Below, in pieces: positions 56,840-64,000 of a DNA stretch of 64,000 nt; the stretch's first letter is position 1, and every line of letters begins with the position of its first letter. The notes below the pieces were generated by a model. That model was given only the letters and a program-made list of their open reading frames with translations, was not told where the DNA came from and ran no database searches. Source of the DNA: a virus; the IMG/VR virus record IMGVR_UViG_3300044591_001861, positions 26,245 to 90,244 of that record. One strand, 5' to 3'. Position numbers and translations under genes: made by a program.

Positions 56840-57682
56840 TTATCCGATCATGTCTAGAGGTGGAAGTTCGTATGTTGATGACATCTTATCCATGATGACA
56901 TCAATTTCTCTTTGTCCATCGTCAAACAATTGTCTTCCATTCAATTCAACTCCACCAGGAAGTTTAACTCCCTGAAATTTAATAAGATTTTGTCCCCATT
57001 GTCTTTTAATTAATGCGGTTAAATATGGTTTTAAAAATGAATCATTCCAAACTCTAGAATAATCTCCAGGATCCATCATTCTATAACAGTCTATAATAAT
57101 ATAATGACCAACTTGTAAACTAGACCAATCAATATCAAGATATAATCTATCCTGCCTCTTATTAAAACGTATTTGCTTCTGTGTAGTTAATAACCAATCA
57201 ATATCTTCAAGATATCTTTTTACCATTGAATATGAAAGTAATTCAGTCGAACCCCAATAGTAAATATCATTTAAGAACAATTGATATTTAATACCAAACA
57301 TTCCACTTGATACTGAATTAGATCCTTCAAAATGAAATATTTTATTTACTCCTATTACATGAGAAGGAACTTGTAAATAATTACTATTTTCGTAGTAATT
57401 GAAAGTTACTGTTGTTGTACCTATACCAGCACTAGCTGATGTTGATGCTATGCCAACCCCAGTGATTCCTTTTGCCCTACCTCTATCAATATCTTCTTGT
57501 CTGACTTGATATTTTAAATATGTTTGATAAACCCCATCAAAATGTCTTTCTTGAAAGAGTTGTAGGGCATCATCGACAAGATCGTCAATTTGCTCATCAG
57601 CAATATTAATCTCTAATACTGGAGCTCCCAATTTTCTTAAACAATAATCGACAAGTTCTTGTCTTGAAGATGGTTGTGCCAT
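56840..57682 (-). CDS. 13: Neck protein (gp13-like)
   Basis: A 280-residue neck protein. LVDYCLRKLGAPVLEINIADEQIDDLVDDALQLFQERHFDG near 12-52 is the conserved gp13 start, and LKPYLTALIKRQWGQNLIKFQGVKLPGGVELNGRQ near 220-255 the conserved end. A Gly/Ser-rich segment (GIASTSASAGIGTT) interrupts the middle. It acts with gp14 at the head-tail joint. T4 gp13 has 309 residues. Confidence 0.95.
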   Translation of the reverse strand: MAQPSSRQELVDYCLRKLGAPVLEINIADEQIDDLVDDALQLFQERHFDGVYQTYLKYQVRQEDIDRGRAKGITGVGIASTSASAGIGTTTVTFNYYENSNYLQVPSHVIGVNKIFHFEGSNSVSSGMFGIKYQLFLNDIYYWGSTELLSYSMVKRYLEDIDWLLTTQKQIRFNKRQDRLYLDIDWSSLQVGHYIIIDCYRMMDPGDYSRVWNDSFLKPYLTALIKRQWGQNLIKFQGVKLPGGVELNGRQLFDDGQREIDVIMDKMSSTYELPPLDMIG

Positions 57683-57733: not shown

Positions 57734-58000
57734 TTATTTCAATAGGTTCCTTAGGAGAGATTTAATTTCATCCAAGTCATCCTTAAGATTTGTAATATTA
57801 GACTCAATGGATTCTATTCGTTTGGTTTCTGATTCTTTAATTTTTTTCAATTCAATATAAGTTTTATATTCATCATAATTTGTATTTAAAATGGCATTTG
57901 TCCTCTCATCTCTTACTAAGTTTGGATGCCCTTCAACAAAACTGAAGTTTAATAATTCAGGAGGAAGTTGACCTTCCTCACTGTTACTAATGTTATTCAT
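57734..58000 (-). CDS. Coiled-coil hypothetical protein (88 aa)
   Basis: An 88-residue protein with a short N-terminal segment and a C-terminal coiled coil (IESIESNITNLKDDLDEIKSLLRNLL). N-terminal LPPELLNFSFVEGHPNLVRDE contains a FVEGHP-type block. It lies six bases after the giant tail protein, so it may be an assembly factor or trimeric attachment piece; this is context only. Confidence 0.7.
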   Translation of the reverse strand: MNNISNSEEGQLPPELLNFSFVEGHPNLVRDERTNAILNTNYDEYKTYIELKKIKESETKRIESIESNITNLKDDLDEIKSLLRNLLK

Positions 58001-58006
58001 AGATTA

Positions 58007-61000
58007 TTATGCAAGTGATATAATTCTCAGATCTCTCAATCTGGGTGGATATGCTTGATTGGAAGAAGAACCAATTAATTTAATACTATAATATTTAAAG
58101 TTTGGTAGATTATCAATTGTAAACTCATAATCTTTGTAAATGATTTCATTACTCAAGAAACCAGTTGATTCTGCGTATGCAACTTTATCATCTGGAGTTC
58201 CATCGCTGTTTTCAAGATTAATAACCTGACCAGATTTGATTTTGTTATTAAATCCTGGGAATGGATAATAAACGGGCTCTTCAGTAGGTTCATCCATAAT
58301 TGCATATAAAGCTCTTAAATCAGCAAAAGAATTAATGTGTGCAGTGAGTAGAACCTTAATTGAAGATGCTGGAACTTCCAGTGTTATTGGGTTTGTAGCA
58401 TAAACAAAGGCAGATGGATCATTAGCGAGAGTAGAAACTCTAAAATCTTGAGTATAATTTTGAATTGGTTTGTTAACCCTATTACTGATGAAAATCATTC
58501 CAACTCTATCAAGATCAATTACTGGAGAGATGTTTTGATCAGAGCTATTTAATGTCATTTCAAGTGTAAATGACTTATTTCCAGGCATATCACTGAGATA
58601 TTGAAGTTCATTTTGCTTAGATGCAACAATTCTTGGCGTTGAAAGATAAGTATTATTGTCTAAACTAATATCTTCATACCCAACATCAAGGTAAGGAGAT
58701 TCAATTCCATCGACACTTGAACCAGTTACTGTTCTAATCTTAGCAGTTACAGAAGTATCTGCTGGTTTCATTACCTGAACAATAGGTTTAACAATTTCAA
58801 AAGGAATATTTTGTGTAGCAAAGATGTTAGATCCTCCAGCACTCTTCTTAGCAAATGGATATAATGCAGGAAGTACTCCAGATCCGCTTCTATCAACTTG
58901 ACCCTGAGGTAAAGATGATGTTTTTCCTGCTTGAGAAGTATCAATCTTAATATAATAAGAATCAATATCTACAGTTCTGGTAATTGTAGAATCTTGTAGA
59001 GTGTGTATCTTATTAATTCTTCTCAGAGAAATGCCATTCACCTCATACTTCATAACATTTGTTCCAGATTGATAAGTAAATGATAGAGTATCATCAATTC
59101 CTCTGGTAATACCAGTTAAAGTATTATCATCAACTCCAGTATATGCAATTATTTCTTGATCAATTTTTACATAACCTGGATTTGATTCGCTAACTGGAAG
59201 TCCCTCAAATTTTAAGAATGCACTTTCTCCAGTATCTGGATTTATAATCATATCTGTTAGTATAATATCACCAGTTGATGCTCTATCATATTCAAAATCT
59301 AAATTGGAAGCATCAATATCAGAGTAGCATCCTGTAATTGAAACGCTGCTGGACTTGAAGTGCATTCCGTGATTTTTGTGATTTACCAAAACATGGAGAC
59401 CATCGCTATCTTCATAATCTGGAGTAATTGATTGAATTGTCACTCCACCACCAAGGGTTGAATTTAAATCAGTACTTCCGATTCCTGCAGCAATGAATCT
59501 AATAGTATTTCCAACTCCAGTTAAGAATGTTCCTTGAACTTGATCTAAAATAATCTCATTAAAACCACTAATATTGGAAATTGATAGTCTTAGATTTCTT
59601 CCTAAAGTTGATCCACCAAGAGATGATATTGTTACAACATCTCCAACTTTATATCCAGTTCCTCCAGAATTGATAGTTGCTCCTAAAGCAACTACTTCTC
59701 CACCAGAAATAGTAATATTTGCAGTAGCATTTTTTCCAGTTCCAGTTACACTAACCAAACTTACATTTGAATAGTATCCATTAACATATCCTGTTCCATT
59801 ATTGATAATGCTCAGGGTGCTACTTGCAACACCAGCTTTAGCGACATAATTGCCAGTTCCATTAGAACTTCTTTGAATGACTGTGTTGCCAAATTGCAAA
59901 TTATTATCCTGAACAGTAGATCCTAAACCAACTCTAATTCTTCTTGAATTGAAGACCAGAGAATCTGTCAAGAGATTGGCAATCTGCTTGTTACCAACAT
60001 TTAAATCTGGGTTATAGAAGTTAACCTTTCCTACTGTTGAGGTAAATTTAGCTTTGAATAGGGTAAATTTAAGATCTTCATATTGACTTGCATCCCAAGT
60101 ACTTCCATTTTGTGATTTAAATAGAGATCCTAGTAATGGTTGTTGAGTGACAACAATTTGCTGAGACTGTGGTAGTGATAATGTACTCACATCAATCTCT
60201 CCCATTCTAGAGATCCAAACATTATACTCATTTGATTCTGACATTAGAACCAGAGCATGTTCTGCTCCACCCTTTAGATATACTGGTGATGGGAAAGTAA
60301 TTGTTGTTGCAACACTTCCATCTTCAGATAAGTTAATATCCTTCGGTTGAATAATAACTTCACTAAAAGGATATACATCAGTTTGTGGTAATCCAAGTTG
60401 CATTGGACGCAACTGAACAACAACTGGTAATTTTGCATCCTTTGTTCTAAAGAATACTTCAACTTTGGTTACATAAATTCCATTTTCTTCTTCAACAAAG
60501 AAAGATTGTGCAAGAGGGTCAAAACGGCACCATCCCCATTTTCCATATCTATATTTCCATGAATATGGCCATCCATACCAACCTCTCACTGAGGTTGAAA
60601 CTGTGGTTGTCGTTTCAGAAACCTGCTTAGATTCTGTTAAAGTCTCAGAAGTAATCTTTGCATTTCTAGTAGTCTGAATAGTTTCTTGGATAGTTTCAAG
60701 TTTTCCACTTGCTTCATAAATTTCTTCACCACTGGTCTGAGTTACTCCAGGTATTTGTGAGTTAACAGAACTACTAGTCAGTCTAAACGTTTTCTTTCCA
60801 GTTTCAAAAGTTGGATTCGATGGAACGTTTGGATTTGGAATGAAATAAGAACCATAGACTGCTCCAACAGCATCTGTTACCAACTTAACATCTGTTATTC
60901 TAGCTTCTGCACCACTTGTTTGTCCTCTTAATATCATTCCTGGACTTACATATCCATAATAATTTCCAAGTGCTTGTTCAGCAAGACTACGAACGTCGAC

Positions 61001-64000
61001 ATTCAGAATTGTAGAAGTTGTAGAATATTGTTCCTGTATTAATGTATTATTATCTTTATCGTATGGATTTACGTTAAAGATATCAGTTGGCGAATTAAAT
61101 GGACCAGTTCTATGATTTGAAGATGCTAATCTAAATTTGATTTGAACATCAGTAATTCCTGGAGTTGGGTCTGTAGATAAAGATGTTGTCTGAACAATAC
61201 CAGTAACTGTTTCTCCAACTTGGAATACTCCAGAGCTCATTTGAACTTGAAGAAGTTTTGGAATAACAAATTTATTAAGATCTTGACCATCAAAGAAAGC
61301 ATATACTCTTGTAAATGGTTTAAATCTACTTCCAATAAATTCAACGTTCCTAGATCTCATAAATGGAACAACTTCTGTAGAAATTACAGAATCCCCAAGA
61401 GATACTGTTTTTACTTCTTCTGTAAGTTTTTGCTGAGTACCTGTTCTTGTTGAAGTACCTGTCTTTGTAGTTGTTGTTGCAACCTGAGTTGCAACACGTC
61501 CCCAATATCCACCATACCAAGGATATCCCCAATAGTATCTGTTATAATTCCAACCATGCCAACCATAATAATGTCCCCAATAACCATTATAGTATGGGAA
61601 TCTATTCCAATTCCATCCATAATAACCTCTATTCCACCACTTACTGCCCCACCACCAACGTCCTCCATAATAACGACGACTGCTAACCGTAGTTGTAGTT
61701 GTTTCTCCAGTCCAAGTTGTTTCCCATGCTCCCCAACTTACTGGACTTAATCCAGTTTGAGGGTCCCAACCCTGAGCAATAAGTTGTTGCTGTGTCTGGG
61801 TAAAATTATCAATCTCAACATTCTTGGCATCAACTCTAACTTGATCTACCCAAGTATCTGATGATGGGAATAGTATTATTGTACCAGTATATGAAACTAC
61901 AAGGAACGGAGTTATATTTTCTGTTCTCGTTGCATATGGATTTTCAACTTTAACAACATCTTCATAGTCAAGAGATATAAGTTGACCTGTTCTCTTAGAT
62001 CCATTGCCAATGAGATCTGTTACATATTGAGCATCTGCAAGTGGATTTAGGGTTGAACCAATTCCAACTAAAGATTTTGATCCAATAATGAGGTCAATCT
62101 GTGTAGTATATGGTGCTGGTCTCAACTCGGAATTTTTAGTATCGATACTATTTTTTACAATAGTACTCTTATTTTGAGAACTTGTTGTTGTAAAATCATC
62201 TACAAAGAATCCAGACTTAAATCTATCAAGACCGTTAGAATCCTTAATCTTAAGATTTTCAGTTGCAGACTCAAGTAAGTTTAGTGAAGTATATTTTTCA
62301 AGATTTCTTACTCTTTCTTCAAGTTTTGCAATATCTCTCATTCTAAAGCGTTTATGATCGGTTAGATCAATTGAAACTCTAGATGCATCGCAGAGATATG
62401 GTTGAATTGAAATGGTTGCAACTTCCATTGCTCCATCTACAGATGCTGGTTCTTCAGGCATCTCCGCTGGAGTTCCTTTATTTAATTGGAAAACACCATC
62501 TTTTGTTAGATATATTTTATCAATTCTTGGTAAATAATATGAATATGATGCGACAAATGATTCATCACTTGCTAAAACGTGCTTGGTGCAATTGTTTATT
62601 TCATTAAATGATCTTCCTAAAAATTCAAATGGAGATCTATCAGTAATATTAATATCGAATGGTTTTACTCTTAAACGTCCATCAATAATATCTGCATTGT
62701 TTACAGTTTCTTTCGCAAATGTAATTGTACAATAATCAAACTGACTGTAAGAGTTTGCAGTTACAATATCACCAGTATCTGAAGGTGAGAATTCTGCAGT
62801 CTCATAAATTACCCTCAGTTTTCCTTTTGGTTCTGGAGAATTTGCATTTCTCCTTAAAGATGTATAATCATATAAAGTATCTCTTTGTCCATAATCGAAT
62901 GAGAAATTAGCAATAATATTTCTACTACCAGCGTTTACTGCTTGAGATACTGCAGTTACTCCAGATTCTTTAAATCTTATTGGTTCTAATTCTTGTAGTA
63001 TATTTTCATTTAGATAACTAAACTCTACTCTAACGTCATCAATCTTAGAAACAACAACTCCAACAGCTCCACTTATTTCTCCTATAAATTCTTCTCCAAC
63101 TATAAGTTCCTGAGTTGTTGCTGAAGATCCACTAAGATTTGATAGGATTATTGTAGGTAAAATAGGATCATTTGTATTTGTTGATTCTAAAATAGAGTAT
63201 ACCTTTGTTACATCTGGAACTAATAGGCAAAGATCTTCATCCTGAATTCGAGTTCCGTATGGATAACTTGTACCATATGAAAGACCATCATTAAGAGTTG
63301 TGGTTCCTATTCCAGATGAGATATCTCTAGATCTATCAAATACAAGACTGTTAATTCTTTTTTTAGATTTTGTCTTGCTGGTAACATTAATTTTTCTCAA
63401 AGTAGCAATTAATCTGCAATTTGAAGCACTAGTATTTGCTAGACCAACTATAGTTAATTGTTTTTGTCCACTTTCAAAGACAAATCTATCTGGGGTTAGG
63501 ACTTCAAATTGACCAGAAGAAGTTGTTAAAACATATCTTTCCTCATCAAAAGGTAGGAATGTTTCATTATCTCCTGCTGTAATTGTATTGGTTTGATTTG
63601 CACTGATTGTAATTGGGAATTCTTTTCTAACTGTTAGATTTGATTCTGTTAAATCTACGTTAGCTATAAATGGTCGCGGAAGGTTTGTATATAAAGTATT
63701 ATCTCCAGAAGGTAAGAATCTTGAGGAGAGTAGAGCAAAATCCTTAATATCCATTTGTGACTGTGGCAATCCACCATCACAAATATTTGTCACTGTAGTT
63801 ATACCAGCGACTATAATTTCTTTTTCGTTTACTGTAAGTACTTTAGATAAAGTTTGAGCAGTGTGTCCAACTTTAGTATATGAAACTAAATTTCCAGGTT
63901 TTACAATATTTGTAAATATAATATCTTGACTATCTGTTACTCTAACTGTCGAAATTCCTACTCCACTACCATTATTTCTTTCTTGAGTTATAAGTACATC
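58007..64000 (-). CDS. Giant tail structural protein with Trp/Tyr/Gly-rich tract (5' end off window)
   Basis: An open frame runs from the stop at 58007 to the window edge without interruption: 1997 residues visible. The GTG at 63793 is internal, because the frame stays open upstream. It is mostly beta, Thr/Ser/Asn-rich. The block YYLPRIDKIYLTKDGVFQLN, then DHKRFRMRDIAKLEERVRNL and EKYTSLNLLES, resembles DUF4815-type phage structural proteins. An exceptional Trp/Tyr/Gly-rich tract is at 61496-61678 and a smaller one near 60520-60585, each flanked by Thr-rich strands. G-x-G-Y repeats occur near 59630-59810. It is probably a baseplate- or fibre-associated protein. Confidence 0.88.
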   Translation of the reverse strand, partial: DVLITQERNNGSGVGISTVRVTDSQDIIFTNIVKPGNLVSYTKVGHTAQTLSKVLTVNEKEIIVAGITTVTNICDGGLPQSQMDIKDFALLSSRFLPSGDNTLYTNLPRPFIANVDLTESNLTVRKEFPITISANQTNTITAGDNETFLPFDEERYVLTTSSGQFEVLTPDRFVFESGQKQLTIVGLANTSASNCRLIATLRKINVTSKTKSKKRINSLVFDRSRDISSGIGTTTLNDGLSYGTSYPYGTRIQDEDLCLLVPDVTKVYSILESTNTNDPILPTIILSNLSGSSATTQELIVGEEFIGEISGAVGVVVSKIDDVRVEFSYLNENILQELEPIRFKESGVTAVSQAVNAGSRNIIANFSFDYGQRDTLYDYTSLRRNANSPEPKGKLRVIYETAEFSPSDTGDIVTANSYSQFDYCTITFAKETVNNADIIDGRLRVKPFDINITDRSPFEFLGRSFNEINNCTKHVLASDESFVASYSYYLPRIDKIYLTKDGVFQLNKGTPAEMPEEPASVDGAMEVATISIQPYLCDASRVSIDLTDHKRFRMRDIAKLEERVRNLEKYTSLNLLESATENLKIKDSNGLDRFKSGFFVDDFTTTSSQNKSTIVKNSIDTKNSELRPAPYTTQIDLIIGSKSLVGIGSTLNPLADAQYVTDLIGNGSKRTGQLISLDYEDVVKVENPYATRTENITPFLVVSYTGTIILFPSSDTWVDQVRVDAKNVEIDNFTQTQQQLIAQGWDPQTGLSPVSWGAWETTWTGETTTTTVSSRRYYGGRWWWGSKWWNRGYYGWNWNRFPYYNGYWGHYYGWHGWNYNRYYWGYPWYGGYWGRVATQVATTTTKTGTSTRTGTQQKLTEEVKTVSLGDSVISTEVVPFMRSRNVEFIGSRFKPFTRVYAFFDGQDLNKFVIPKLLQVQMSSGVFQVGETVTGIVQTTSLSTDPTPGITDVQIKFRLASSNHRTGPFNSPTDIFNVNPYDKDNNTLIQEQYSTTSTILNVDVRSLAEQALGNYYGYVSPGMILRGQTSGAEARITDVKLVTDAVGAVYGSYFIPNPNVPSNPTFETGKKTFRLTSSSVNSQIPGVTQTSGEEIYEASGKLETIQETIQTTRNAKITSETLTESKQVSETTTTVSTSVRGWYGWPYSWKYRYGKWGWCRFDPLAQSFFVEEENGIYVTKVEVFFRTKDAKLPVVVQLRPMQLGLPQTDVYPFSEVIIQPKDINLSEDGSVATTITFPSPVYLKGGAEHALVLMSESNEYNVWISRMGEIDVSTLSLPQSQQIVVTQQPLLGSLFKSQNGSTWDASQYEDLKFTLFKAKFTSTVGKVNFYNPDLNVGNKQIANLLTDSLVFNSRRIRVGLGSTVQDNNLQFGNTVIQRSSNGTGNYVAKAGVASSTLSIINNGTGYVNGYYSNVSLVSVTGTGKNATANITISGGEVVALGATINSGGTGYKVGDVVTISSLGGSTLGRNLRLSISNISGFNEIILDQVQGTFLTGVGNTIRFIAAGIGSTDLNSTLGGGVTIQSITPDYEDSDGLHVLVNHKNHGMHFKSSSVSITGCYSDIDASNLDFEYDRASTGDIILTDMIINPDTGESAFLKFEGLPVSESNPGYVKIDQEIIAYTGVDDNTLTGITRGIDDTLSFTYQSGTNVMKYEVNGISLRRINKIHTLQDSTITRTVDIDSYYIKIDTSQAGKTSSLPQGQVDRSGSGVLPALYPFAKKSAGGSNIFATQNIPFEIVKPIVQVMKPADTSVTAKIRTVTGSSVDGIESPYLDVGYEDISLDNNTYLSTPRIVASKQNELQYLSDMPGNKSFTLEMTLNSSDQNISPVIDLDRVGMIFISNRVNKPIQNYTQDFRVSTLANDPSAFVYATNPITLEVPASSIKVLLTAHINSFADLRALYAIMDEPTEEPVYYPFPGFNNKIKSGQVINLENSDGTPDDKVAYAESTGFLSNEIIYKDYEFTIDNLPNFKYYSIKLIGSSSNQAYPPRLRDLRIISLA

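Follow-up and report, generated by a model that had tools for sequence, protein, structure and literature searches.

What is a run of 61 residues made up largely of Tyr, Trp and Gly doing inside a giant tail protein? The question is raised by a window of 64,000 nucleotides, here meaning the whole stretch of DNA that was analysed, from an uncultured, cyanophage-like virus (IMG/VR record IMGVR_UViG_3300044591_001861). The segment, hereafter slot 1, is located as follows:

61496..61678, minus strand: W/Y/G-rich tract (slot 1), residues 706-766 of the open reading frame in the window, equal to residues 1347-1407 of the full protein.

Its 183 bases encode 61 residues, RRYYGGRWWWGSKWWNRGYYGWNWNRFPYYNGYWGHYYGWHGWNYNRYYWGYPWYGGYWGR, with the composition Y15 G13 W13 R7 N6 P2 H2 S1 K1 F1, and our recount agrees exactly with the length and the numbers of Trp (13), Tyr (15), Gly (13), Phe (one) and His (two) given in the initial annotation. 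Trp and Tyr make up 28 of the 61 residues, as against 4.6% of the rest of the protein (binomial p ~1e-21, or ~2e-18 once all positions are allowed for), and no other stretch of the protein comes near the tract in W/Y density. The Gly residues (21%) are interspersed with Tyr and Trp, never more than two in a row; eight residues are basic and none is acidic, and no tandem DNA repeats were found within the tract. A Pfam search returned no match between the tract and known families of carbohydrate-binding modules, DUF4815 being the sole match of the protein.

The window ends where the 90-kb virus record ends, and the gene that carries the tract is cut there. Because of this cut, the GTG that opens the 1928-aa reading frame at 58007-63793 is not the true start of the gene; a second contig, L003, which shows no mismatch to the window over 5784 bases, encodes the whole protein of 2569 aa. 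The gene, its recognizable domains and its neighbours are:

58007..64000, minus strand: gene for the VrlC/DUF4815 baseplate protein (PF16075, phrog_358), C-terminal 1997 codons, the 5′ end being cut by the contig end.
61835..62566, minus strand: DUF4815 match (Pfam), residues 410-653.
60032..60523, minus strand: conserved DPLAQ domain, residues 1091-1254, most like PDB 9euf (phmmer i-Evalue 8e-19 to ORF65 of Staphylococcus phage 812, and Foldseek).
57734..58000, minus strand: small virion structural protein adjoining VrlC (phrog_473).
56840..57682, minus strand: neck or head-tail adaptor protein in the gp13 position (phrog_211), in the same order in Synechococcus phage S-SM2.
55432..56835, minus strand: neck protein gp14 (PF11649).

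The match to PF16075, for which the curated Pfam cut-off is 30 bits, scores 75.6 bits in the window part (E 3.5e-21) and 194.3 bits in the full-length protein, and the match of the window protein to phrog_358 scores 1426 bits. ORF65 of phage 812 is the only sequence relative among solved structures (phmmer to PDB 9euf, E 7.6e-26; profile, E 7e-51), and HHalign aligns the protein with gp106 of Listeria phage A511 (99.9%, E 9e-38), itself 56% identical to the phage 812 protein. A Foldseek search with the model described below matched the phage 812 protein over 869 columns (E 2e-15); matches past phage 812 and other VrlC proteins, pore-forming toxins included, were far below significance. On these comparisons we identify the protein as VrlC (DUF4815, phrog_358), homologous to A511 gp106 and phage 812 ORF65, and the giant tail protein of the initial annotation can be named as a baseplate protein. 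The gene order points the same way: gp13 and gp14 lie downstream of VrlC in the window, and the gp8 side, cut off here, is present in cyanophage relatives, the same gene in Synechococcus phages being named VrlC and placed after gp8. T4-like phages of picocyanobacteria and SAR11 have VrlC among their core proteins. In cyanophages and SAR11 phages it is regarded as part of a double-layered type of baseplate (PMC7029224). The family and its baseplate role were thus already known. In a limited literature search of incomplete coverage, we found no description of the aromatic-glycine slot, of a second slot that covaries with it or of their repeated origin, and nothing relevant on aromatic tracts in phage tails; the novelty for phages claimed at the outset stands to that extent.

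Across 74 aligned homologs, slot 1 lies between the conserved motifs WGAWETTWTG and TGTxTRxGT; in most of them it is filled by a Ser-, Thr-, Arg- or Gly-rich stretch of about 20-60 residues, with no aromatic tract. AlphaFold models of medium confidence were obtained for the window protein (residues 405-1285, monomer, pLDDT 64, pTM 0.5) and for a homolog with a short slot, L041 (monomer, pLDDT 67, pTM 0.5). The predicted strands, and the second aromatic segment to which one of them leads, are:

61676..61723, minus strand: Thr-rich β-strand entering slot 1, residues 691-706 (AlphaFold).
61370..61492, minus strand: 41-residue Thr-rich β-strand leaving slot 1, residues 768-808 (AlphaFold; 42 residues in L041).
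60596..60736, minus strand: 47-residue β-strand leading to slot 2, residues 1020-1066 (AlphaFold; 43 residues in L041).
60521..60586, minus strand: second aromatic segment (slot 2), residues 1070-1091, RGWYGWPYSWKYRYGKWGWCRF, just ahead of the conserved DPLAQ motif.

The tract, which was originally placed between two Thr-rich strands, is flanked by just such strands in the model and has itself a pLDDT of about 22-31. In the L041 model two strands, of 16 and 42 residues, meet in a two-residue β-turn at slot 1, and the tract occupies the place of this turn in the window model. The strand after slot 1 and the one before slot 2 are nearly equal in length, which suggests an antiparallel pair carrying the two slots together at its far end, a placement based on the strand lengths and on the co-variation of the slots. 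If extended, arm strands of about 41 and 47 residues would span roughly 130-150 angstrom.

A composition so odd raises the suspicion of an artefact. However, the tract is letter for letter identical in two other contigs, L003 and L010, and is kept in a relative, L002, that is 91% identical over the region. Between the tracts of L002 and the window 21 codons differ, of which 14 are silent and seven are replacements; dN is 0.07 and dS 1.4, the latter near saturation and estimated from few silent sites, and their ratio resembles the one in the flanks. Among the aromatic positions, L002 departs from the window at F732H and Y763W only. This codon-level comparison indicates that the tract is under strong purifying selection. 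The reading frame is open throughout, as had been claimed, and whereas tract-less relatives with a clean repair of the frame had been named as the mark of an error, relatives at 60-91% identity keep the tract and distant ones carry other in-frame residues, of different length. A sequencing or assembly error or a frameshift is rejected on the identical copies and on the selection. For the tract as such an error, or as the target of a diversity-generating retroelement, nothing speaks beyond the composition itself, and neither a reverse transcriptase nor a second DNA copy of the tract was found in the 90-kb record, which is incomplete; the probability that any of these accounts for the tract is close to negligible.

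Slot 2 of the window protein, a segment of 22 residues not noted in the initial annotation, is W/Y-rich (RGWYGWPYSWKYRYGKWGWC), and rich in Trp, Arg and Lys. Other homologs have at this site poly-Pro, PRPRP, Arg-rich, Gly-rich or collagen-like sequences, and the W/Y densities of slots 1 and 2 across homologs are correlated (Spearman 0.64, uncorrected for kinship, the number of independent events being three). The site is variable in several further respects. Long PRPRP or poly-Pro tracts are found in L081 (Synechococcus phage S-SCSM1), L055, L060 and L061, and a collagen-like GAQGATG repeat in L039. A long insert before DPLAQ in L075 includes LKSVQQAYVDYLGRRPETGGEQYW, which we take to resemble a DUF4214-type domain. 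In L056 (1904-7502), L071 (5066-10630) and L076 (5084-10645), and similarly in L058, L063, L066 and L078, slot 2 is the point at which VrlC is divided between two genes: the first gene ends with SDxxLKKNIxxIDNALNRLLNI, the start of a Peptidase_S74 chaperone (a weak match, below the cut-off), a separate small gene of about 80 aa holds the rest of the S74 domain (E 2e-10), and the second VrlC gene begins with DPLAQ; a chaperone domain spread over two genes is unusual. Lastly, a Cys stands a few residues ahead of DPLAQ in the window (60527-60529) and in L137, L141, L171, L173, L099 and L103, in the forms GWCRFDPLAQ, YGCPWWDPLAQ and GYCYWDPLAQ, and recurs in two separate aromatic lineages.

A query with the tract region brought in further tract-bearing relatives (L097, L098, L099 and L103-L105). 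Scans of the viral collection with DNA patterns blind to the protein family (YYGYWGxYY and YYGYYGYYG) led again to slot 1 of VrlC, and to a separate lineage (L137, L141, L171 and L173); the matches to a WGWGWxW pattern were mainly chance ones in GC-rich DNA. Outside VrlC, the same sort of tract occurs in another tail protein, a phrog_350 match of 837 aa encoded at L144:7536-10046 (minus strand) and L157:1-1500, with the W/Y/R-rich stretches RRYYGYYGYYGGYNYAWWRYRYRYSYGWYWNRW and RWGGWRWRYWWNSSWFYGYSY, and a non-VrlC reading frame of 295 aa on the minus strand of L123 has a Y/G/W-rich stretch, YYSPYYYGFGWYNPYWYGGYWGYPYYGWGYYGGYYGYYGYG. An aromatic tract in slot 1 is missing from all 19 phage records examined, of which 18 are isolates or environmental genomes and one is a single-cell marine virus. 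In host genomes, the tract region matched one Prochlorococcus single-cell contig, the VrlC of which is without the tract. As a sign of the host, psbA was sought and found neither in the record of the window nor in the tract-bearing contig L065; photosystem genes are present in L012, a relative without the tract.

A tree was built from 63 sequences with the slots left out. Parsimony needs three changes on it to account for aromatic slot 1, against a mean of 12.8 and a minimum of 9 in shuffled data; they correspond to the window clade and the L137 clade, each with a support of 1.0, and to L057, and slot 2 is aromatic in all three as well. By tree parsimony, the aromatic tract arose at the same site about three times. 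Residue order is kept beyond composition for most pairs in the window clade (shuffle z mostly 3-13), but not between L099 or L103 and L025 or L005 (z near 0), and between origins z is mostly 0-3. The 15 tracts collected are 15-67 residues long. Asp and Glu are absent from them, Phe occurs once and Ala twice; the lack of acidic and aliphatic residues is partly helped by the delimiting score, which penalises both. Their net charge ranges from 0 to +10, the tracts of L036 and L065 having no charged residue, and a net positive charge is not conserved among relatives. The YYG units of L137 and L141 look as if made by slippage.

The tract is real, selected and has about three origins at the same spot, and is therefore likely to be an adhesive patch in contact with the host or with adjacent parts of the tail. 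A composition of Tyr and Trp that leaves out Phe and aliphatic residues suits a contact through stacking and hydrogen bonds more than it does a hydrophobic core. Since relatives place poly-Pro, Gly-rich, collagen-like or fibre-like sequences and the start of Peptidase_S74 at slot 2, this slot fits an outward-facing, exposed end. We consider that there is about an even chance that the tract is a flexible aromatic-glycine cap at the arm tip of the VrlC pyramid protein and binds the host surface. Trimers of A511 gp106 form the pyramids of the double-layered baseplate, which reorient to the cell wall on adsorption (PMC9863714, PMC11406892). The tract would be the flexible tip of the long β-arm of a gp106-like VrlC, in which two long Thr-rich strands of similar length connect to the two variable slots. 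Were the protein trimeric, like A511 gp106, each tip would gather three copies of both slots, with Trp and Tyr together contributing about a hundred side chains, and the clustered slots may form a disordered, multivalent adhesive cap; as the pyramid turns down on adsorption, this cap would hold the phage to host sugars or to the outer layer, gripping by stacking and hydrogen bonding. We infer here the common arm tip of the two slots, the trimeric state, the surface exposure and the adhesion to the host. Points that speak against this reading are the shorter slot 1 connector and the missing arm insertion of phage 812 ORF65, the medium confidence of the monomer models, and the lack of the tract in every phage record sampled.

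The main rival places the contact within the virion: the aromatic tips would bind each other or other tail proteins, locking arms, pyramids or fibres. Tyr, Trp and Gly with some Arg and Asn and no acidic residues is the composition of self-associating sequences, which the tract matches, and residue order is conserved in most of the window clade. That slots 1 and 2 turn aromatic together in three lineages is expected if they touch, and self-association and a host-binding cap explain this joint change equally well. However, tract length and charge vary over the ranges given above while the core is conserved, and relatives must assemble with quite different slots; we hold self-association to be rather unlikely, though well ahead of the readings that follow.

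The slots could instead be near-neutral spacers, low-complexity fillers drifting by slippage, in which aromatic, Pro, Gly and Arg versions are equivalent. The many slot compositions, from poly-Pro and PRPRP to Arg-rich and Gly-rich, and the slippage-like YYG units of L137 and L141 are what such drift would leave. It is disfavoured by the strong purifying selection, with its aromatic-for-aromatic changes, and by the repeated joint origin in both slots; the window tract has no tandem repeats, moreover, and Phe, aliphatic and acidic residues are excluded from the tracts. We judge drift improbable. Even less probable, by our estimate, is a cationic, Trp-rich, membrane-active segment that perturbs the outer membrane in the manner of indolicidin and lactoferricin-type peptides. 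The eight basic and no acidic residues of the window tract, the Trp, Arg and Lys of its slot 2 and the YWRRRWWRRRYW of the L005 tract would suit such a segment, but since the tracts of L065 and L036 are uncharged, charge is not a conserved feature.

Returning to the host-binding cap, a broader proposal is more tentative and in our estimate somewhat less likely to be right than wrong: that contractile-tail phages repeatedly evolved a tip class of its own, a disordered Trp/Tyr/Gly cap formed where two slots meet at the end of the pyramid arm, serving as a general multivalent glue for host surfaces rather than as a folded, specific receptor-binding domain. If true, it would be a natural example of virion adhesion by disordered aromatic sequence. 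Independent lineages install the same aromatic-glycine chemistry and slot 2 follows, which marks a precise site of the baseplate, and by what means and at what point these phages take hold of the cell becomes a testable question.

How does the tract protein compare with known systems? A511 gp106 and phage 812 ORF65 (PDB 9euf, 9eui) are baseplate proteins that share its DUF4815 and DPLAQ domains, but at 1151-1152 aa, as against 2569 aa, they are without the large insertion between slots 1 and 2 that lengthens the arm. Their slot 1, of about 50 aa, has only a mild aromatic patch (A511, VNRWWLHGGNYYSDEARY), and the connector at this site is shorter in ORF65 than in the tract protein. The VrlC proteins of Synechococcus phages S-SM2, S-SCSM1 and Bellamy are homologous over the whole window protein (44-47% identity), stand in the same gp8-gp13/gp14 setting and have variable slots at the same two sites; neither slot is aromatic, however, slot 1 being Ser/Thr/Arg/Gly-rich and slot 2 Pro-, Arg- or Ser/Thr-rich. 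The gp38-type adhesins of T-even phages form a glycine-rich, low-complexity, variable tip of a tail appendage, in which poly-Gly motifs make up a glycine sandwich. The tract resembles them as a low-complexity, Gly-containing variable tip, but belongs to a different protein and, on inspection, contains none of these motifs. The tract is like aromatic-rich, prion-like self-associating segments and Trp-rich peptides in its Tyr/Trp/Gly/Arg composition and predicted disorder; it differs from them in that its charge is not conserved and in that it is built into a virion protein, at the end of a strand.
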